A DNA stretch of 64,000 nt, from positions 64,329 through 128,328 of the forward strand of contig JABTUV010000008.1 in NCBI GenBank assembly GCA_015075175.1. Direction: 5' to 3'. The translations under genes and the position numbers were made by a program. Of the stretch, positions 7,063 to 63,961 are shown piece after piece (the first letter of the stretch is position 1; each line of letters starts with the position of its first letter). The DNA is from a bacterium (GTDB taxonomy: Bacteria > Hinthialibacterota > Hinthialibacteria > H5-UNCL2). A model generated the notes under the pieces. That model worked only from the letters and a program-made list of their open reading frames with translations, was not told where the DNA came from and did not search any database.

Positions 7063-8493
7063 TCAGATTATCACTTTCGTGTTCCCACCCCGCTCCAGAT
7101 TGATGTCCATGTTGGGCCGGTTGGTTTTCCAGGAGCCGCAGGTGAAGTCGGGCACGTCGATCGAGTTCGAGCGATGCAGGACCGACCACTCGGAGAGGGG
7201 ACGATGGGCTCCAGGCGGCGGCGTCGTAAACGTCCGTGTCCAGCGGCAGGCCGTTGCGCGCAGGCAGTCGATGAGCCGCCGAAACTCTCAAACAGGTCCG
7301 TTCCCCAGTGGCCCGCGCCGGTGCGTTCCGCCGCCTCGGCCAGCTGCGGTGGATGGCCGGAGTGTACTGCTCCTCCAGCGCCTTGAACTCCTCCGGCGAG
7401 ACCCAGTTGTGGTTGGACGCTTCGCCGCGGGCGAGCCGGGGCGGTTGCGGATCAAAGAGCGCCGCACCCTGGTCCCATAGATGCCGTGAATGAATGAGGC
7501 GTGCGGCGAGGGCGACGTGGCGTCATGCTGCAACATGATGGTCCGCCCCATGGCGGTGCGAAGGGTAGTCACATTCATGTTGCCGCGATAGGTCTTGTCC
7601 GCGAAGGGCTTCCAGAAGTCGTCCGTGGCGGCCAGCTCGCGGGCCTTCTTCTGCATCATGAAATCGTTGCTTTCGACCGACACGAGAAAATCGAACCTGT
7701 CGCCCCGATTGATGTTCATGATCACGCTCACCGGTCCGAGTCCGTGCGTGGGATACACGTTGCCGCGGTGCTCGGCGTAAATCTTGAGCCACCACATGTC
7801 CCAGTAAGTTGCGGTTGAAATTGTTGCCCATCTTGCTGGTGTTGTAGGCGCGCAGTCGCCGTGGACCACTTCGCGGAAGAAGAAGCCCTGGCGGGCCAGG
7901 TTGAGGGTCAAGAAGCTGGAACGGCGTGTAGCAGATGTTTTCCAGCATCATGCAGTGGCGGCGGGTCTCCTCGGCGGTTTCACAAGCTCGCCATAGCCGC
8001 TCCTCGCAAAGTCGCGGCGGGCGGCGGCAGCGACGTGGCGGCCGTGCTTCATGGCGTACACGGCCATCTCGGTGTGCATGGTGTAGGGCGTGGTGACGAT
8101 CACGAGATCGACGTCCTCGCGCTGACACAGCTTCTTCCAGCCTTCCTCCCCCGTGTAGAGCTCCGGATCATGGGCGGTGTTCCTCAGCATGGCCTTGGCC
8201 GCCTGCGCCTTTTCGGGCCGCAGGTCGCAGAGGGCCTTGAACTGGACGCCCTCGATGTAGCGCATGTGGCGAATGTAGGAGGGGCCGCGCTGGCCCAGGC
8301 CGATGATGCCCACGCGTACCGTGGGGATGGGATCCACGGCGAATCCGGACATGTTGAAGCGCTGCGTCCGAGGCGCCGTCGGCGCCGCGGCGGCCGGCGA
8401 ATGGGATTGGCAGCCTGAAACCAGGCCGCTTGCAGCCACGCCCAGCCCCGCCAGTCCCGCGCCCGCCACGAACTCTCTGCGATGGATTTCCAT
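7063..8493 (-). pseudogene. Gfo/Idh/MocA oxidoreductase, GH109 (alpha-N-acetylgalactosaminidase-like) copy 2, frame-disrupted
   Basis: Exported NAD-dependent glycosidase-type protein. The start ATG at 8493 follows GGGAGGAACGATC and opens a Tat signal (MEIHRREFVAGAGLAGLGVA) ending in a lipobox-like VSGC. The Rossmann motif RVGIIGLGQRGP and EDVDLVIVTTPYTMH follow. Downstream, across several frameshifts, come YPTHGLGPVSVIMNINRGDR, MLQHDATSPSPHASF, and a C-terminus with LPLDTDVYDAAAWSP ... NMDINLERGG. These blocks are characteristic of GH109, whose members cleave alpha-GalNAc using tightly bound NAD+. Length (about 476 residues) is normal for the family. It lies 19 bp after the paralogue on the same strand, so the pair is one transcript. 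The indels lie in different places from those in the paralogue, which suggests sequence error as much as decay. Confidence 0.8.
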
Positions 8494-8512
8494 GATCGTT
8501 CCTCCCCAATGT

Positions 8513-9939
8513 CTAGACGAGTACCCGCGTGTTGCCGCCGCGTTCCAGGTTGATGTCCATGTTGGGCTTGTTGGTCTTCCAGGCGCCGCACGTAAAGTCC
8601 GGCACGTCGATGGAGTTCGACCGATGCAGCACCGACCACTCGGAAAGGGGAACGATGGGCTCAGGCGGCGGCGTCGTAAACGTCCATGTCCAGCGGCAGG
8701 CCGTTGCGCAGGCAGTCGATGAGCCGCCAGGTCTCCATGAGGATCGGTTCCGCCGTGGCCCGCGCCCAGCGCCGGGCGATTTCGCTCAACTTCCTGGTGA
8801 TCTTGGGCGTGGAGGCTTCTCCTGCAACTGGCTGAACACCTCCGCAGACGCCCTCTCGTGGTTGCCGGTGCACAGCCAGGGGAGGAGGCGGATCGTAGAG
8901 CGCGGGCCGTTGGTTCCGTAAATGCCGTGAATCAGATTGTGCGGCGAGGGCGAGGTGGCGTCGTGCTGCACCATGATGGTGCGTCCCATGGTGGTGCGAA
9001 TGGTGGTCACGCTCATGTTGCCGCGGTAGGTCTTCTCCGCGAACGGCTTGAAGAACTCGTCGCGCTCGGCCAGCTCACGCGCTTTGGCCTGCATCATGAA
9101 GTCGTTGCTCTCGACCGACACGAGGAAGCTCGAACCTGTCGCCGCGGTTGATGTTCATGATGGTACTGACCGGACCCAGACCGTGGGTGGGATAGATGTT
9201 GCCCTGCGTTCGGCGTACTGCTTGAGCCCACCATGTCCCAGTACATGTTGCGGGAGGATTGTTGCGCATCTTGCTGGTGTTGTAGGCGCAGTCGCCGTGG
9301 ACCACTTCGCCGAAGAAACCTTCGCGCGCCATGTTGAGCGTCAGGAGCTGGAAGGGAGGTAGCAGTAATTCTCCATCATCATGCAATGCCGGCGGTATTC
9401 CTCGGCGGTCTCGACGAGGTTGCCAGCATTCCTCGAGGTACCGGCGGCGGGGACCTCGGAGAGCAACGTGCTTGCCGTGCTTCATGGCGTGGACGGCCAT
9501 CATCGTATGCATGTACCACGGCGTGGTGACGACGATCAAATCCAGGTCGTCGCGCTCACATGAAAATTACTTCTTCAGTCTTCCTCGCCGGTATAAACGT
9601 CGGGATCGTGATTGGTTCCCCGCAGGCGCGCCTTGGCGGCGTTGACTTTCTCGGGGCGGATGTCGCACAGGGCCTTGATCTCGACGCCCTCGATGAAGCG
9701 GAGGTTCTGGACGTAGGCGGGCCCGCGCTGGCCGGTCCCCAGGATCGCTACGCGTATCTTCTCCAGCGGCGGCGCGGCGAATGCCGACATGTTGTACTTC
9801 TGAACGCGCGGCTTCTTCTGCTCCTGGTCTTTTGCGGCGCTCTGCGCGATGGCGGGCTTTGGCGGCATCGTGCTTCCGGCCAGACCCAGACCGGCCAGGC
9901 CGGTCGTGGCGACGAAATCCTGCGATTGATTCCCATCAT
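8513..9939 (-). pseudogene. Gfo/Idh/MocA oxidoreductase, GH109-like copy 1, frame-disrupted
   Basis: First gene of the tandem pair. Start ATG at 9939 (or 9936) after GGGAGGAACCTG; the Tat motif NRRDFVATTGLAGLGLAG is recovered by one frame change at about residue 6. Then come a Rossmann block IRVAILGTGQRGPAYVQNL, CDIRPEKVNAAKARLRG, YPTHGLGPVSTIMNINRGDR, MVQHDATSPSPHNLIHGIYG and the terminal NMDINLERGGNTRVLV before TAG at 8515-8513. It matches GH109 over its whole length (about 475 residues) and is about as similar to its neighbour as recent paralogues are. Likely periplasmic or surface-exposed and acting on alpha-linked GalNAc or a related amino sugar. At least five indels interrupt it. Confidence 0.8.
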
Positions 9940-10507
9940 CAGGTTCCTCCCATGGTGTGATTCCCGCCGGCCGGCGCCAGCGCTCCCTCGCCTGAAGTAG
10001 GAGGCGGCACAGAGGATAACCTTCCAGGAATGGAAGCGAAAGCGACAGGCTCCATTGAAAACGCAGCGAACGGGCCTTCACCGCACATCCCGTCCAGGCA
10101 CATCGACCATACCGCAGCGTCCGCTCGAAAGCGAGATTTCCACCGTGCCGGGTCGTAGAGACGACCAGGGGCCGCAAGTGGGAGCGCTCTTGGTTCGGCG
10201 GGAGCGCCACTCCAGCCCGGTAGGGGCGACGCGCCCGCGGCAGCAAAGCAGCCGCATTCCACATCGCCAAGCCCTGCAAGGGCCACCCTCTAGCGCACCT
10301 GCGGACCTCAATAACGGCAGAATCAGGATTACGTCGGCCATATTATACCCTGGCATCCGGAGGCCGTCGTTGCGCAGCGTGCTGCGCCTGCGCCCGCCGT
10401 CCCAAGCCAGGTATCTCCTGGACGCCATAGTAAGCGCAAGATTACGAGGCAAAGCACGATTAAGATTAAGGTCAAGATTAAAACTGAAATTAAGATTAAG
10501 ATCAGGA
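9940..10507. other. Intergenic region with hexamer tract
   Basis: Separates the end of the sigma-54 activator from the GH109 pair. From 10436 to 10508 the plus strand is a run of AAGATTAAG-type hexamers. Near 10374 is the GTTGCGCAGCGTGCTGCGC palindrome also seen at 6847. The activator's frame stays open through all this to a stop at 10078, but nothing after the helix-turn-helix looks like protein. No sigma-54 -24/-12 promoter was recognised in front of the GH109 genes. Confidence 0.5.
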
Positions 10508-11866
10508 TTGGGAGGAGAGTAGCGTTTCAGTTTGTTATAAATACTCTTCTCACTTATCCCCAATCTGCGGGCAGCTTCGGCCTTGTTGTTGTTGCAGAGT
10601 TGCAGGGTCGCGGGATGGCGCGGCGTTCCAGTTCGGCCAAGGGCACGCCGGCCAGTGTTTCACGGGTCGGTTGAACGGGAGAAGCGGGCGGCGGCGCGTC
10701 CAGCGGCAGGTCGTCCAGCTCGACCGTCTCGTCGCGGCAGAAGGCGGTAGCGCGCTCCAGGACGTTTTCAGTTCGCGGACGTTGCCGGGCCAGGATGGGA
10801 GAGCAGGCGCCGCAACGCCGCAGGCGCGATGTGGCAGGGCTTCGTCTTGCGATGTCGCGCGATGCGCGCCAAGAGATGCTCGACCAGCGGCGGGATGTCG
10901 TCAGGACGCTCGCGCAGCGCAGGATGTGCAGCAGCAGGACGTTGATGCGATAAAGAGGTCCTCACGAAAGCTTCTGCCGGCAGAGCTGGGAGAGGTCCTG
11001 ATGGGTGGCGGCGATCACCCGCACGTCGACCTCGATGGGCTTGGTCCCGCCCACGCGCGAGAAGGTGCGCTCCTGAAGGAAGGTCAGGAAGCCCTGGGCT
11101 GCAGGTCCAGCGGCATGTCGCCGACTTCGTCCAGAAGCAGAGTTCCCCCGTCGGCGACTTCGATCAGGCCGACGCGGCGCTCGTGCGCGCCGGTAAAAGC
11201 GCCCTTTTCGTGGCCAGAAACCGACTCGATCAGTTCGCGGGGCAGGGCGACGCAGTTGACGGCGATGAAGGGGCCGCGCGCGCCAGGCCGTCGTAGTGGA
11301 TGAGGCGGGCCAGAGGCCCTTGCAAACTCCGCTTTCGCCGGTGATGAGCACGGTCGAGTCCAGTTGCGCCACGCGCCGCGCGTGCTGAACCAGCGCCAAC
11401 GCGGCCGGAGATCGCCCGATGAAGGCGCTCTGCGGCCGGCTCCCGCCACCGCCTGCCGCAATCGGCGATTCTCGCGCGCCAACTCGTGATGCTGCGGCCT
11501 GCCCCACCAGCGCGATCAGCGCGTCCAGATTGGCGGGCTTGGTGAGATAATCGGACGCGCCCGCCTTCATCGCTTCCACCGCCTTGCCGATGTCACGCGC
11601 CGCGGTCACGATGATGACTTCGGTGTCGGGCTGCCGGCCCTTGATGGCCGCGAGGCACTCCAGCCCCGACATGCCGGGCATGGAGAGATCCACCAGCGCC
11701 GCGACGACCTCCTCGGACAGGCGCTCTAACGCCGCCTCGCCGCTCTCCGCCAACAGCGGCAGGTATCCCGCCTGCCGCAGACTGAAGTCGAACAGCGAAC
11801 GGACCGAGGGATCGTCATCCACGACCAGGATGGACGGCGGCTTGTCGGCCTTGCGACGGCTATCAA
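10508..11866 (-). pseudogene. NtrC-family sigma-54-dependent response regulator, frame-disrupted
   Basis: Last gene of the signalling operon. N-terminal receiver: acidic pocket VDDDPSVR, phosphoacceptor Asp in ALVDLSMPG, conserved Lys in YLTKPAN. AAA+ domain: Walker A in a variant form (GESGVCKG where GESGTGKE is usual), the sigma-54 contact motif GAFTGA, Walker [10 protein letters not shown], and RVIAATHQDL. C-terminal Fis-type helix-turn-helix: GISEKSIYNKLKRY. Several indels break the AAA+ part. The start is uncertain: an AAGGAG site at about 11871-11878 points to a TTG near 11866 or an ATT beside it. The protein would activate sigma-54 promoters after phosphorylation, presumably by the kinases encoded just upstream. 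In this consensus the frame does not stop after the HTH but runs into a hexamer tract. Confidence 0.8.
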
Positions 11867-11878
11867 TTAAGTCTCCTT

Positions 11879-12023
11879 CACGAGCTGTGCTCTTACAATC
11901 TTAATCTTAATCTTAATCTTAATCTTGCTCTTGCTCTTGCTCTTGCTCTTAATCTCAGCCCAATTCATGCGCGCGCCGGCAAAGGATGCCGGCGGTTCGC
12001 CGCAATGGTGGGTGAAACCCACC
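11879..12023. repeat. Hexamer tract and palindromes between kinase and activator genes
   Basis: From 11893 to 11955 the plus strand is CTTAATCTTAATC changing into CTTGCTCTTGCTC, an imperfect hexamer run. It is followed by GCCGGCAAAGGATGCCGGC (about 11981-11999) and GGTGGGTGAAACCCACCC (about 12007-12024). Repeats inside an apparent operon could act as processing or attenuation sites; this is inference. Confidence 0.7.
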
Positions 12024-13877
12024 CTACGGCAGCGTAAACCAGAACGTCGCGCCGCGGTCCGGGTTGTTGAAAACCCCGATCCTCCCTCCGTGCAACTCGA
12101 CCAGCATTTTAGCGATGGAGAGGCCGAGACCGGAGCTCTTTTCGCCGCCCGTCGGTTTGGCCGACAGGCGCGCGTATTTGACAAACACGCGTTCAAGGTC
12201 GGCGGGCGACAGTCCCGGCCCCTCGTCCGCGACTTCCAGGCATACCCCTTGTCCCTCCCGTCGGCTGCGCAGCGTGACGCGCGCTCCGGGTGGACTGAAC
12301 TTGATGGCGTTGCCCAGCAGATTGGCGAGTACCTGCTGGATGCGGTCGGGATCGACGGAGACGTCGGGCAGGCCGTTTTCCAGCTCGCAGAGGACCCGGA
12401 TGTTCTTGGAGCGGGCGTAGCCTTCGTGGGCCAGACGGGCCTGGCGGGCCAGGGCGTTCACGTCGAGACGGACGGCCTGCAGGGTGAGGCGCCCGTCCTG
12501 CAGCGCCTGGAAGTCGATGAAGTCGCGCACGATTTTCCGCATCACCTCGCCGCCTTCGCGGATGGCGGAGAGCATCGAGCGCATCTCGGCGGTCACGGGC
12601 GCGCCAGGGGCGCATTTCATTTTCCAGGACGGTCGCAAACCCAGCACGTTGTTGAGGATTCTTGAGGTCGTGGCTGGCGATGGTGAGAGCTCGTCCTTCA
12701 GGCGGGCCAGCGTCTGGCGCTCGCGCTCCAGCTCCCTTTTCGCGCGTGATGTCGGCGCCGATGGCCAGGAGCGCCCGCCGGCTGTCCGCGCTCATCGTGA
12801 AGCGGAGACGGTGAGAGAGGAAAGGTCTCGCCGCTGTTTCTGCGGCCGGCGATCGCCGGAGAATCCCTCAGGACAGGCCGCCCGTGCAGAAGGATGCGCG
12901 CCGCCTCGGCCTCGGCGAAGAGCGGCTCGACCGGGCCGCCCAAGCGGTCCTGGGCGGAGCATCAAAGGCAGCCTCGGCGGCGCGGTTGAAGCGCGTGATG
13001 CGGCCCGCCTCATCCCAGGCGATGATCATCAACCGCGCGTCGGATCAGGTTCTCGGAGAAGTCCTTCTCAGCCCGCAGCGCCCGCTCCAGCCCCGCGATG
13101 CGCAACTGGGCGGTGATGCGCGCCAAGAGGACCGCGATGTCACGGGCTTGCCGACGTAATCGTTGGCGCCCAGTCGCAGAGGCCTCACGATGTCCTGGCT
13201 GCGATCGCGGGCGGTGACCATGATGACGGGCCGCTCGACCATGTTCCAGCGCCCGCGGAAGCCTCCAGACGGACAGGCCGGACAGGCCAGGGCATCACGT
13301 CCAGGAGCACCAGGTCGAAGTCGCGTTCCTCCAGGCGGGCCAGGGCGGCCGGGCCGTCGGCGGCCGTTTCCACCACGTAGCCCTCCATGCCGATGCGGCG
13401 CGACAGGAAGTCGCGGGACAGATCGTCGTCCTCAACCAGGAGCAGGGTCGGGCGGGCGATCTCCGGCTCGGCCGGCTCCGGCGGTGCAGGTGAGAGCGGA
13501 GTTGGATGAGCGGCCCGGCCCAGGTGCGCCTCGATTTTGGCCAGCAGCCTCGCCACGTCCACCGGCTTGGTGTCGTAGTCGTCGCAGCCGGCGGCCAGGC
13601 ATCGTTCGCGGTCGCCCGGCATGGCGTGCGCCGTGAGCGCCACCAGCGGCACGCGGCGGGCGCCGGCCTCGGCCCTCAATTGCGCCGCCAGCTCCCAGCC
13701 GTCCATGCCCGGCAGGCTCATGTCCAAGAGGATGAGGTCGGGCCGGTCCTGGCGGGCGCGAAGAAGACCGGACGGGCCGTCTTCGGCCAGGAGCACTTCA
13801 TGCCCCTCCAGTTCGAGGCGGCGCGAGAGCATGTCGCGATTGGTTTCGTTGTCCTCGATGTACAGGATTTTAGCCAT
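12024..13877 (-). pseudogene. REC-REC-PAS hybrid histidine kinase, frame-disrupted
   Basis: Second gene of the operon, about 618 residues over several frames. Start ATG at 13877 overlaps the end of the upstream kinase (ATGGCTAA, 8 nt), implying translational coupling. Two receivers come first: residues ~1-120 (YIEDNETNRDM, LLDMSLPGMDGW, TKPVDV) and ~135-255 (LVEDDDLSRDFL, LVLLDVMPW, GANDYVGKPV). A short linker, a PAS domain (GWDEAGRITRFNRAAEAAF), a HisKA helix with HDLKNP and an ATPase domain with NLLGNAIKFS, DEGPGLS and SGLGLSIAKM follow. No transmembrane segment is visible, so it should be cytosolic. Its receivers-first order suggests a middle step in a phosphorelay: it could take phosphate or be tuned by the membrane kinase and act on the downstream NtrC-type protein. 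At least four indels are needed. Confidence 0.8.
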
Positions 13878-16800
13878 GCGGGCCGCCTCCGGGCGCGCGC
13901 GCCAGCACGTGCCGGACTTCGGCGACCAGCGCCTGGCGGCCGCCCGCGCCTTTTTGCAGGATGGCCTCGACCGAACCGCGCAGCCGTTCGCGCTCCTCCC
14001 GCGACAGGTCCTTGGCGGTGAGCACGATCACGGGAATGGTCTCGGCGTCGGGGCGCTCGCGCAAGGCGGCGGCGAACTGGAAGCCGTCCATTTCCGGCAT
14101 CAGGAGGTCCAGGACGATGGCGTCGGGGCGGACCGCGTCCAGCCGCTCCAGGGCCACGCCGCCGTGCTCGGCCTCGAAGGTGACGAAACCGGCCTCGCGC
14201 AATGCCGCCGAAAGCGAGCGGCGCGTGGGTTCGTCATCCTCGACGACCAGGATGCGGCGGCCCGCGGACGGCGGAAGATGCCGGCGCAGGGCGGCGATGA
14301 GATGTTCGCGCGGGATGGGCTTGGTGAGATAGTCGGCGGCGCCCAGCGCCAGCCCCATGCGCCGCTGGTCCACCATGGTCGCCAGGACTACCGGGATGTC
14401 CGCCAATCCGGGATCGCGCTTGAGCCGCCGCAGGACGCTCCAGCCGTCCATGCGCGGCATGATCACGTCCAAGACGATGGCGGCGGGATGCAGGGTGCGG
14501 GCCAGGGCCAGCCCTTCCTCGCCGCCGGCGGCCGCGACGGGATACAGGCCCGCCTCCGTGAGCGTGCGGCACAAGAGGTCCCGCGCCGCCGGCTCGTCGT
14601 CGATCACCAGGATGGTCGCCGTTCCGCCGGCGTCGGTGTCGGCGGGCGCAGCAGGCCGCGCAAGTACGGAATCGGGCGCGGCAGGCTGGGCCACCACGCC
14701 GTCAGGGGGCGGCGGGCAGCGCCGCCACCACCGTGCCCTCCTCGGCGGCCGCCGGCAGCCAGAGGGTGAAGCAGGTTCCCGCCTGCGGCGCGCTCTCCGC
14801 CGACAGCCGCCCACCCATCGACTCGCACAGTCGCTTGGCGATCGACAGTCCCAACCCCGTTCCGCCGTACTTGCGGGTGGTCGAGCCGTCCGCCTGTACG
14901 AACGGCTCGAAGACGCGCGCCAGCTCCTCCGGCGTCATGCCGATGCCGGTGTCGCGCACCTGCACCAGCACGCCGGGCCGCCCGTCGCAAAGCGATCGGC
15001 GCGCGTGGAGAGTGATCACACCCGCCTCGGTGAACTTGCAGGCGTTGCCCAGAAGATTGAGGAGAATCTGCCGTAAGCGCGTGGGATCGGCGTAAATCTC
15101 GCCCGGCTGGTCGGGGACATCCAGCTGGAAGCGATTGGCGTTGCGGGCCGCCAGGGGTTCGACGGTCGCCGCAACGTCGGAGAGGAGGGTCGCCAGGGAG
15201 AATATTTCCGGCGACAACTCCAGCCGTCCCGCCTCCACCTTGGAAAGGTCAAGAATATCGTTGATGAGGCGCAGGAGATGCTCGCCGGAGGCGTGGATGC
15301 GGGCCAGGTCGGGGATGAACTCCTCCAGGCCCTTCCTGCGGGCCAAGAGTTGCAGCATCTCGCTGTAGCCCATGACGGAATTGAGGGGGGTGCGGAGTTC
15401 GTGGCTCATGTTGGCCAAAAAGCGGCTTTTTTCGCGGCTGGCGGCCTCGGCGGCCTCCTTGGCGGCGCGCAGGGCCTCCTCGGCCTCCTTGCGGCGGGTG
15501 ATGTCGGTGGCCACGCCGAGAAATCCGGTAATCTCGCCCGCCGCGTCGCGCAGCGCGGTGACGACCAAGTTGACGGTCAGCCGGCTGCCGTCCCTGCGCA
15601 CGTAGGTCCACTCGCGTTCCTCGTGGCCGCCGCGGCGCGCGCGCTCCACGAACGCGGCGAACCAGTCGATGGGATAACCGAACTCCTCGGACAGCCGCCG
15701 TCCGTGTTCGGCGACCTCCTCCGGATCCTGAATCACCTCGGGCGTCGTTTTGCCGATCATCTCCGCGGCGCGCCAGCCCAGCATCCGCTCGGCGCCGGCG
15801 TTGAAGACGGTGATCAGGCCGCGCGTGTCGGTGGCGATGATGGAGACCTCGGTGGCCGCCGCCAACACGCCGTAGAAGCTGCTGTTGGCTTCGTAGAGCG
15901 CCTCCTCGGCGCGCACCCGCTCGGTGATGTCGTTCTGCACCCCACGTAATGGGTGAGACGGCCCTCGGCGTCGCGGATGGGGAGAGATGCAGGTCGTTCC
16001 AAAGAGGCGTCCGTCGGCGCGATAGTTGCGCAGCGTGACGCGGCAGTCGCGCCCTTCGAGAGCGCCCGCCGCACAAACGTCAATGCCGGTTGGTCGCGGT
16101 CCTCGCCTTGGAGAAAGCGGCAGTTGCGACCCAGCACGTCGGCTTTCGCGTAGCCGGTGATGGCTTCGAAGGCGGGATTGACGTCGAGAATGGGCAGGTC
16201 GGGGCGGCGGGCGTCGCAGATGACGATGCCGTTGGCGGCGGCGGCGATGGCGCGGTCGCGCAGGGAGAGGACCTCGGCGATGCGGCGCCGCTCGGCGACT
16301 TCGGCGGCCAGGCTGGCGGTGCGTTCGGCGACCAAGCGCTCGACGCGCTGGGAGCGGCCGACCAGGTTGGCCAGGAAGGCGGCGAGGAGGAGGGTAAGGG
16401 CGCAGCCGACCGCCAAGCCGGCCTCGGGGCCGCGGCCGCGCCGCGCCGCCACGAAGCCCCGCGTGGCCGTCGCCGCCAGCCGCCAGCGCCGCTCCGCCAG
16501 CGTGAACTCGGTCTCGGTGGCCACCTCCGGCACGACCTCCTGCCCCGTTTCCAGCGGTTGGCAATAGATCAGCCGCGCGGGCGTTTCCGTGGCGTCCCAC
16601 AGTTCCAGGCGCAGCCCGCCGCGCGAGAAGCGCGCCAGCGCCCCCTCCACTGCCGCCGGTATGCCCGCTACCATGACCACCATCCCGGCGAGATGCTCCC
16701 GTCGCCACGCCGTGGTCCGCACCGCCTCGGGCGTCTCCGGCTCGTCATAGACGGCCAGGTAGACCAACATGCCGGTCGTGCGGTGGGTGCGTTGAACGAG

Positions 16801-17379
16801 CGTGATCGGCTCGGAGGCGACCGGCCGTCCCGTGTCGCGGGCGCGTTCCAGGGCGGCCTTGCGGCGCGGTTCCGAGGTCGGGTCGAAACCCATCACGTTT
16901 TCATTGCCCTGGAAGGGTTCGACGTACCAGACGGGGAAGTACTCCTCGCGGGTCGCGGCGGGGACCAGTTCGCCGGAGGGCGCCAGGTCGCGGATCATAT
17001 AGTCGGGAAAGCCTTCGGCGCGGGTCGCCGCCTCGTGGGCGGCGCGCCGGTCGGTGGAGAGGCGCGGCTCCCACTCCAACGCGCGGATGCTGGGACGACG
17101 CGCCAGCGTGTCGGCCACGAAGGCGCGGAATTCCGCCCGTTCCACCCGCTCGGAGGCGGCGTAGAAGGCGGAGAGCGCCGAGAGCGCCGCCAAGTCTTCG
17201 CTGAACTCGCGTTGCACCGCCAACATGCGGTCGCGCGCGCCCAGGTCGAACTCGGCCTGCACCGTCCGCTGCGCGTGCTACCGCAGCGCCTGGTACACAA
17301 GCAGCGTACATCCGCCGCCCAACAGCAGCACCACCAGCGCCGCCGTCACGCTCCGGGGCATCCCTCCATCCCTTCCCAT
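13870..17379 (-). CDS. Membrane CHASE-LOV-PAS hybrid histidine kinase with two C-terminal receivers, frame-disrupted
   Basis: First gene of the signalling operon, about 1165 residues. Order: TM1 (SVTAALVVLLLGGGCTLLVY), periplasmic CHASE sensor (FVADTLARRPSIRALEWEPR, EYFPVWYVEPF), TM2 (GLAVGCALTLLLAAFLANLVG), a LOV-type PAS with the flavin-cysteine motif GRNCRFLQ and the later NYRADG motif, a second PAS (SIIATDTRGLITVFNAGAER), HisKA with SHELRTPLN, ATPase with NLLGNACKFT, DTGIGM and GGTGLGLS, then two receivers (LVIDDEP / LDVIMPRMDGW and VVEDDEP / LDLLMPEMDGF). Breaks: an in-frame TAG at 17280-17278 after TM1, indels inside the LOV region near 15950-16080, and one at a G run near 14706 that splits off the receivers. 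Start taken at 17379; 17361 is possible. Inferred to sense an extracellular ligand and blue light together. Confidence 0.82.
17278..17280 (-). other. In-frame amber codon in the CHASE-LOV kinase
   Basis: The TM1 segment (..LLVYQALR) and the CHASE segment (HAQRTVQAEFDLGARD..) are in the same frame, separated only by TAG. A single base change would restore CAG, GAG or TGG. Restart at the GTG at 17262 would give a kinase without its first membrane helix. Confidence 0.7.
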
Positions 17380-17499
17380 GCCAGGCGGCATGGTCGCGCT
17401 TTTCGGTGCGGTCCACCACAAGACGCAACCGGACCGGCGGTCCTGTCCGCAATAATGTGAATTTATCACTCTCGTCCTGCGCTGACAAGGCGAGTGGAA

Positions 17500-19554: not shown

Positions 19555-19630
19555 GGTGCGCACGGCGCACCGCCTGACGGCGTCCGCTTGGCGAAGTTTG
19601 TATTCCCGAGTACAGGCTTCAGCCTGCAGA
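19553..19630. repeat. GTAGGGTGCGCAC and GAGTACAGGCTTCAGCCTGC repeats
   Basis: A GTAGGGTGCGCACGGCGCACCGC palindrome directly after the thiC stop, then a GAGTACAGGCTTCAGCCTGC palindrome at 19610-19629. An upstream in-frame ATG of the sulfatase frame lies in this repeat DNA and is not credible as a start. Confidence 0.75.
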
Positions 19631-19680
19631 TGCCAACGGAAGTTTGTACTCCGCAAATGCGCGGACTTCGGGAGGTATTC

Positions 19681-21099
19681 ATGGCCGGGCCGTGTCACAA
19701 CGCCGTACCGCGCCGTCAATTCCTGCAGGACGCCGCCGCCGGTGTCGCGGGACTCTCGCTGCTCGGCCTCGGCTGCGAAGGGCAGCGTCGCGCGCAGGTG
19801 GGCGCGGGGGCCAGGCCCTGCAACCTGCTCTTTATCTTCGCCGATCAGATGCACGGCTTCGCCCTCGGGTGCATGAATCATCCCGACGTGCTGACGCCGC
19901 ATCTGGATCAGTTGGCGGCGAGCGGGACGCTGTTTCGCAATTGCTACAGCGCCGCGCCCGTGTGCACGCCGTTCCGCGCCAACCTCTTCACCGGCCGCTA
20001 CGGCTCGCAGACGGGCGTGTTGCGCAACAACCAGCGCATTCCCGAAGGCGCGCGCACGCTGGCCGCGGCCCTCAATGACGGAGGTTACACCACCAGCTAC
20101 GTCGGCAAATGGCACCTGGGCGCGACCGGCAACGTGGCGGTCCCGGCGCACCTTCGCGGCGACTTCCAGCATTTCATCGGCTACCAGGCGTACAACGACT
20201 ATGAGAAAAATGTGATCTTCTTTGACGAGGACATGGCCCCGCGCCAATTCCCGCGTCATCGCACGGACGCGACGGGGGACGTGGCCATCGAGCGGCTCGA
20301 GGCGATCGCGGACCGGCGGTTCGCGCTGTTCGTGTCGTTTCAGAGCCCGCACTACCCGGAGCAGCCGTCGCCGCGGTTTCTCGACCTCTATCGCGATCTG
20401 AGGCCGACGCGTCGACCCAACTGCCAGGAGATCGACCCCTACATCGGCACGCAGGAGCCTCCCAGCCGGCGCGAGACCGACCCGGTCTACCGGATTTACG
20501 GCAACAACCTGGATGAATACCTGCGCCGTTATTACGCGCTGGTGACGCAGTTGGATGACAACGTTGGCAGAATCCTGGATCGGCTGCGCCAGCTCGGACG
20601 TGAGGACGACACGGTCGTCATCTTCACGTCGGACCATGGCGATATGCAGGGCAGCCACGGTCTCAAGAACAAGAACCGCTACTACGAGGAGTCGGTGCGC
20701 ATTCCGTGCATCGTGCGCGATCCGCGCGGCAAGCGCGGCGACGCGCGTGAGGAACTCGTTTCGTCCGTCGATTTCTTTCCGTCGGTGCTCGATTACGCGG
20801 GTCTGGCGCCGGAACCGACCGCCGAGGGCAGGAGTGTGCTTCCGTTGACGCGCGGTCGCGGAAGTGATTGGGAGGACGTGGTCATCTCGGAGAGTTGCGG
20901 CGCGGCGGGCGGCGATTGGCTCATGGTACGCATGGGGAGATACAAGCTGGTCGCGGACCGGCGACTGCAGCCGGTCGTGCTATTTGATTTGGAAAGGGAC
21001 CCCTACGAAATGCGGGACGTGTTGGCGCAGGAGGGCCGGCGCGCCGCGTCGCTGCGGCAGCGGCTGGTCGCCTGGCACGAGCACGTGACACGCGGATGA
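19681..21099 (+). CDS. Tat-exported lipoprotein sulfatase (Cys-type, S1 family)
   Basis: Arylsulfatase/choline-sulfatase-like enzyme that hydrolyses sulfate esters. ATG at 19681 follows GGGAGG and opens a Tat signal (RRQFLQDAAAGVAGLSLLGLGC) with a lipobox Cys, predicting a membrane-anchored periplasmic or surface protein. Metal ligands LLFIFADQMHG near residue 50; the formylglycine motif CTPFRANLFTGRYGSQTG carries the modified Cys; GKWHLG and FTSDHGDMQGSHG follow as in the family. At 472 residues it is complete. Because the residue is Cys rather than Ser, it needs oxidation to formylglycine; the anaerobic sulfatase maturase at 27339-28574, which accepts Cys and Ser substrates in known members, is the likely partner. 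The substrate cannot be read from sequence, but the GH109 pair nearby points to a sulfated amino-sugar glycan. Confidence 0.9.
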   Translation: MAGPCHNAVPRRQFLQDAAAGVAGLSLLGLGCEGQRRAQVGAGARPCNLLFIFADQMHGFALGCMNHPDVLTPHLDQLAASGTLFRNCYSAAPVCTPFRANLFTGRYGSQTGVLRNNQRIPEGARTLAAALNDGGYTTSYVGKWHLGATGNVAVPAHLRGDFQHFIGYQAYNDYEKNVIFFDEDMAPRQFPRHRTDATGDVAIERLEAIADRRFALFVSFQSPHYPEQPSPRFLDLYRDLRPTRRPNCQEIDPYIGTQEPPSRRETDPVYRIYGNNLDEYLRRYYALVTQLDDNVGRILDRLRQLGREDDTVVIFTSDHGDMQGSHGLKNKNRYYEESVRIPCIVRDPRGKRGDAREELVSSVDFFPSVLDYAGLAPEPTAEGRSVLPLTRGRGSDWEDVVISESCGAAGGDWLMVRMGRYKLVADRRLQPVVLFDLERDPYEMRDVLAQEGRRAASLRQRLVAWHEHVTRG

Positions 21100-23535: not shown

Positions 23536-25291
<1,756 letters not shown>

Positions 25292-38791: not shown

Positions 38792-39433
38792 GCGACCGGC
38801 TCCTTTCCACCTGCGATTACGATTCGTGATCTTAATCGCAATCTTAATCATAATCGTGTTCGCCATCGTAGCTGTCATTTCGACCGAAGGGAGAAATCTT
38901 CTGCATCGCACTGCGGCGGCGACATGCTCCATGCCAACGTCATGTCATTTCGACCGAAGGGAGAAATCTTCTGCATCGCACCGCGGCGGCGACATGCTCC
39001 ATGCCAACGTCATGTCATTTCGACCGAAGGGAGAAATCTCCTGCATCGCGCCCGCCCCGTGACAACAGCGAGAAAGATTTCTCCCTTCGGTCGAAATGAC
39101 AGGAGGCTTCGGTCGAAATGACAGGGGGCTTCGGTCGAAATGGCAGATCTATCCGCACCCGTCTTTAGTGGGGCCTTGCCTCTACCGCAAAACCATGAAA
39201 ATGGCGGCGTTGAGAGCCAGGCCGGTGGCACGGACCTCCAGGTCCGTGATTCGGGCAAGCAAGCCCGAGCTACCGTCCAACCATCGTGCCTGCGACCAAG
39301 TCGCAATATGTTCCGCCGAAAACGGGTGGATTTTCCACCGTCGCCAAGCTATACTCTCCCCAGTAAGGAAGTCGCCTGCCACGGGCCAACCTACGGCCCG
39401 TGACGTCGCCGGCGTGAGGAGCGTTGCCTGAAG
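38792..39433. repeat. Intergenic repeat array: hexamers, 70-bp tandem repeat, hairpins
   Basis: No gene. Hexamer-like CTTAATCGCAATCTTAATC at 38830-38852. A 70-bp direct repeat starts at 38874, 38944 and 39014 (two full copies differing at one or two bases, the third diverging after ~30 bp); each begins with GTCATTTCGACCGAAGGGAG. Inverted copies (CTCCCTTCGGTCGAAATGACA) follow to 39145. Then come short hairpins: CACGGACCTCCAGGTCCGTG (~39232), TCGGGCAAGCAAGCCCGA (~39254) and CACGGGCCAACCTACGGCCCGTG (~39380). Confidence 0.85.
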
Positions 39434-63709: not shown

Positions 63710-63961
63710 TGCCCGCACTGCTGGCATCCTGCCGGCGCGGGGGCGGTCCGCAGAGGGCGGAGGAGAGAGCAAGAGCAAGAGGGCAAGGTAGAGCAAGGTA
63801 AGAGCAGAGTAAGAGTAAGAGCAAAGTAAGAGCAGAGTAAGAGCAAGAGTAAGAGCAAGAGTAAGAGCAAGAGTAAGAGCAGAGGTAAGAGTGGAGGCAA
63901 GATTAAGATTAAGATTAAGATTAAGAACAAGAACAAAGAAACGGATACGAGTGAGGATAAT
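63710..63961. repeat. Palindrome and long purine-rich hexamer tract
   Basis: GGCATCCTGCCGGCGC near 63722, then from about 63758 to 63940 a strand-biased tract of AAGAGC/AAGAGT/AAGGTA and finally AAGATT repeats (GAGTAAGAGCAAGAGTAAGAGC.., AAGATTAAGATTAAG). Its hexamers are those of the tracts at 10436, 11893 and 38830, here much longer. Confidence 0.8.

Follow-up and report, generated by a model that had tools for sequence, protein, structure and literature searches.

Multi-step phosphorelays in which one kinase controls a second through a receiver domain have been described in Leptospira, where LvrA phosphorylates the receiver of LvrB and thereby raises its autokinase activity (PMC5863495, PMC13269768). 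The locus analysed here resembles that pair in that a gene for a hybrid kinase precedes one for a kinase controlled by its receiver, with a transcriptional output further on; LvrA and LvrB, however, are cytoplasmic proteins that sense through PAS and carry neither CHASE nor LOV domains, and the partner of LvrB is the anti-sigma factor LvrC in place of a sigma-54 activator (PMC5863495, PMC13269768). TcsA-TcrA-FsrR of Ensifer medicae is reported as a multi-step phosphorelay of three genes acting with RpoN (doi 10.1111/mmi.13592; cluster in PMC4674904; PMC9048898). The likeness to our locus is that of a three-gene relay with RpoN and an enhancer-binding protein; the Ensifer relay is reported to be acid-activated (doi 10.1111/mmi.13592). 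On the sensor side the nearest described protein is PcrK of Xanthomonas, a bacterial CHASE histidine kinase and a demonstrated isopentenyladenine receptor (PMC7072313), while ligand sensing by our sensor kinase is predicted from its CHASE sequence.

The locus lies on the minus strand (17391–10501) of the 64,000-nucleotide stretch of DNA that was analysed (the window), in a 5.0 Mb genome of 49 contigs that is 84% complete. The three minus-strand frames of 17700–10400 were read, and the pieces were joined for search purposes only and then scanned with Pfam. This joined translation gave CHASE-TM-LOV-PAS-HK-REC-REC, REC-REC-(PAS)-HK and REC-AAA+(GAFTGA)-Fis, with five receiver domains across the three proteins. 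The domains, their order and the number of receivers are thus as the original prediction had them; none of the three genes is open as sequenced, a point it had only alluded to by mentioning a corrected sequence. The features are as follows.

16564–17148, minus strand: CHASE domain (PF03924, 5.9e-49, joined translation)
15917–16260, minus strand: LOV domain with approximate limits, split over three frames (motifs, Pfam PAS, matches to solved LOV domains)
13873–14640, minus strand: the two C-terminal receivers of kinase 1 (two Pfam Response_reg matches; layout as in 24 other genomes)
13873–17391, minus strand: sensor kinase 1, TM-CHASE-TM-LOV-PAS-HisKA-HATPase_c-REC-REC (Pfam, hydrophobic segments, contiguous HK-REC-REC relatives)
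13870–13877, minus strand: ATGGCTAA overlap of the kinase 1 stop and the kinase 2 start (sequence)
12027–13877, minus strand: kinase 2, REC (DivK-like)-REC-(PAS)-HisKA-HATPase_c, possibly two genes, REC and REC-PAS-HK (Pfam, relatives)
11897–11955, no strand assigned: (AAGATT)n hexamer array in the gap from kinase 2 to the regulator, a genome-wide element (repeat search)
10501–11870, minus strand: NtrC-type regulator, REC-sigma-54 AAA+ (KGAFTGA)-Fis HTH (motifs, Pfam)
7288–9944, minus strand: broken GH109-type (Gfo/Idh/MocA) genes downstream (PF01408, PF21252; frame switches)

Strong E-values, and third codon positions that are 86% G+C as in the intact genes of the window, argue against a chance origin of this domain set, and the catalytic and phospho-acceptor motifs are conserved in the sequence pieces. 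Kinase 1 carries CHASE (5.9e-49), two PAS matches of which the first contains GRNCRFLQ, HisKA (7.4e-20), HATPase_c (1.5e-31) and two receivers. Hydrophobic segments at residues 13–37 and 321–346 flank the CHASE domain, which sits N-terminal to the kinase as is usual for CHASE sensor kinases, and which would therefore lie outside the cell with LOV inside. A TGA at 14704–14702 separates HK from REC-REC; a separate REC-REC gene beyond it is unlikely, as relatives run as contiguous HK-REC-REC across that point. The overlap predicted to join the two kinase genes is present at 13877–13870. Kinase 2 has two receivers, HATPase_c (8.8e-27) and a weak HisKA match (4.4e-05, below the cut-off); the PAS domain also proposed for it gave no Pfam match in the damaged stretch at about 13042–12735, and one relative (L112) speaks for it. 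The regulator combines a receiver, a Sigma54_activat domain with GAFTGA (3.4e-49), an AAA lid and an HTH_8 (Fis) helix-turn-helix, as expected of an NtrC-type protein, and RpoN is encoded in the same genome (PF04552, 5.4e-60).

The relay core, part of a domain combination that the original prediction did not know as a described system, is a common bacterial cassette, with the parallels in LvrA/LvrB and TcsA-TcrA-FsrR given above. With the HK-REC-REC part of kinase 1 as query, relatives were found in 24 other genomes from 22 families of a 386-genome sample, at 37–52% identity over ~500 aa and nearly all unbroken. The next gene on the same strand encodes a small REC protein 38–64% identical to REC1 of kinase 2 in 20 of 28 relative loci, and the third gene, where visible, encodes REC-HK, another REC protein, REC-cyclase or, once, REC-AAA54 (L179). 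These loci (L160-L188 and L113) share C-terminal HK-REC-REC, the following receiver, order and strand with ours, and differ from it in their varied input domains, in a small REC that is usually its own gene and in a third gene that usually encodes a kinase or cyclase. One member of the same class (G007) has HK-REC-REC, REC (55%) and REC-cyclase on one contig and, on another, a REC-PAS-HK protein 37% identical to kinase 2. Our locus shows this arrangement on one strand, with a DivK-like REC and then REC-HK coming after HK-REC-REC, the latter REC and REC-HK fused as sequenced; since the small REC usually stands alone in relatives, the correct sequence may have REC1 of kinase 2 as a gene of its own. 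Recurrence with varied sensors and third genes indicates that the core is a common cassette whose input and output are exchangeable, and we consider it fairly probable that the locus is one instance of this widespread modular phosphorelay, with CHASE-TM-LOV-PAS as the variable input and the NtrC-type sigma-54 activator as the likely output.

The output is the part of this reading that is most readily questioned. It is possible, if somewhat doubtful, that these kinases do not signal through the regulator at 10501–11870, that the relay has another partner and that the neighbourhood is accidental. A gap of ~155 bases holding the hexamer array separates kinase 2 from the regulator and makes their co-transcription uncertain. 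The third gene of most cassettes encodes a REC-kinase or cyclase. Relatives keep the kinase and receiver modules linked, but in class relatives this regulator was not found next to them. NtrC-type regulators are very numerous in the source genome and in class genomes, with 66 matches to the regulator in the former and 40–108 per class genome, which leaves the output partner uncertain. Against this, the regulator is on the same strand directly downstream of the kinases, REC-AAA54 is encoded by the third gene of the L179 cassette, and TcsA-TcrA-FsrR is a published analogue (doi 10.1111/mmi.13592; PMC4674904). The hexamer arrays themselves, (AAGATT/GATTAA)n, occur in the window at 10458–10502, 11897–11955 and 63899–63926, and a 21-base run of the unit has 90 overlapping matches in the genome, split 70 to 20 between the strands, and zero in 13 class relatives.

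The adjacent GH109 genes had been put forward as sigma-54 targets of the relay. This idea is unsupported: a scan of the minus strand for -24/-12 sites found none ahead of the genes (upstream of 9944), and the total for the window was at chance level. A sulfatase gene (window 19588–21099, PF00884 1.8e-57) is also found near the GH109 genes, perhaps for glycan use.

The three genes are interrupted by ~23 frame junctions and one in-frame TAG (about 17280–17278, just past TM1 of kinase 1), and the cassette accordingly does not appear here as open, unbroken frames. Kinase 2 has ~8 breaks and the regulator ~10, with damage just past the start of Walker A; the LOV domain, among the worst-damaged parts, is broken four times (near 16050, 16001, 15977 and 15940) and spread over all three frames. 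Not one of the three genes was seen intact. A coding-frame model applied to the whole window placed 14 of 21 direct frame switches within 7471–17400, 15% of its length (binomial 1.8e-7), some of those outside being ordinary gene overlaps. The breaks are thus concentrated across two unrelated gene groups, and most of the window is open. Sequence error is favoured by the clustering, by a third-position G+C of 0.86 across the joined genes, comparable to that of intact genes in the window, by the intact motifs between breaks and by the occurrence of just one in-frame stop in 2254 codons. Local error, more than gene decay, is the most likely source of the breaks.

We regard it as unlikely that this is a decaying pseudogene cluster with genuine indels, dead in the organism. 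Decay would account for ~23 breaks and a TAG within one 7 kb stretch while the genes from 18 kb onward are mostly open, and both the CHASE protein and the canonical LOV motif are the only ones found in the genome. Against it stand the single in-frame stop, the third-position G+C and the motif residues left intact between breaks, and several breaks fall at short homopolymer runs; the unrelated GH109 genes are broken too, as expected of a poorly corrected assembly stretch. The stop count, one seen vs 4.6–5.8 expected at 8–10 substitutions per indel (P 0.02–0.055), is moderate evidence for error over decay, and decay is retained as an alternative for that reason. Elsewhere in the window, a full-length bacterial 16S rRNA gene lies on the plus strand (23536–25095), and 70-base (98% matching) and 22-base (95%) tandem repeats occupy 38873–39146, a stretch that is non-coding according to the frame model.

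Taking the breaks as local error, the distinctive part of the locus is its sensor. The LOV motifs named in the original prediction, GRNCRFLQ (16131–16108, minus strand) and the later NYRADG, are present, and the pieces follow in the order GRNCRFLQ, RNYRADG, WNDLHLSP, VQNDITERV. Across the three frames these provide all canonical LOV residues, the adduct Cys and the flavin-contact Asn, Asn and Gln, and the joined domain matches and aligns with solved LOV domains (best 9vf7, 3.1e-33). It is accordingly a predicted blue-light sensor acting via a flavin-Cys adduct, and CHASE, the sole CHASE domain found in the genome (2.1e-50), a predicted periplasmic ligand sensor. The class comparison covered the source genome and 13 more distant members, 14 genomes in total, in which an exact scan with a GxNCR(F/L)LQ-type DNA pattern gave a single match, the LOV domain of kinase 1, and none in the 13 relatives. 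The sensor pairing is consequently read from one damaged sequence, there being neither a class relative with the canonical motif nor a close relative for comparison. A redox-sensing or structural PAS domain that does not sense light, leaving CHASE as sole input, would suit the lack of the motif in class relatives and the ordinary PAS domains of most CHASE kinases found, and is made improbable by the full set of Cys, Asn, Asn and Gln positions in pieces that align with solved LOV domains.

CHASE and LOV are rarely paired. Short peptide patterns of limited recall, scanned over 84,980 genomes, yielded two other proteins with CHASE and Cys-LOV, both betaproteobacterial. Like kinase 1, L034 (a Rhodocyclaceae kinase) and L050 (a GGDEF-EAL protein) have CHASE, TM and canonical Cys-LOV on one chain; unlike it, L034 has an extra PAS ahead of LOV and no receivers, and L050 ends in GGDEF-EAL. 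CHASE-PAS kinases are common in the 386-genome sample, but none of the matches examined there showed the combination, and no bacterial CHASE and LOV system was found in the part of the literature covered. A plasmid search returned matches to CHASE and matches to LOV, eight of them long. The CHASE domains of L034 and L050 are not the nearest to that of kinase 1, and on a CHASE tree in which most forks are weak the three LOV-bearing proteins need three state changes, at least two of them forced by well-supported branches; common ancestry of the pairing is not supported, and it was probably assembled independently more than once.

The proposed mechanism would start with dimeric kinase 1, tuned both by a periplasmic ligand bound to CHASE and by blue light acting on LOV through the flavin-Cys adduct. 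Kinase 1 would pass phosphate to the receivers that it carries itself and to one or both of those on kinase 2, and receiver phosphorylation would switch kinase 2 on by analogy with LvrB. Kinase 2 could then phosphorylate the NtrC-type regulator, which would open sigma-54 promoters elsewhere in the genome. All phosphotransfer steps are inferred. Since the only HPt found lies in an 872-aa frame, direct signalling through a receiver-controlled kinase as in LvrB is favoured, and a REC-to-HPt-to-REC relay is not.

The TM segments, the canonical LOV sequence and the linked modules are consistent with the membrane receptor with LOV and two-kinase relay proposed from the start. We put forward only tentatively the full reading, a single membrane receptor that joins an extracellular small-molecule signal and blue light and relays both, by way of a second kinase under receiver control, to sigma-54 transcription. 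The lineage is uncultured, and no canonical LOV motif was found in the class relatives sampled. The notable part of the locus is the rare CHASE and LOV pairing, attached to a widespread HK-REC-REC cassette whose sensor end is freely exchanged. Provided that the cell has these genes in working order, nature would here have mounted a receptor with two inputs, ligand outside and blue light inside, on a common relay chassis. Such a receptor would be useful for optogenetics and for studying the control of one kinase by two sensors in series.
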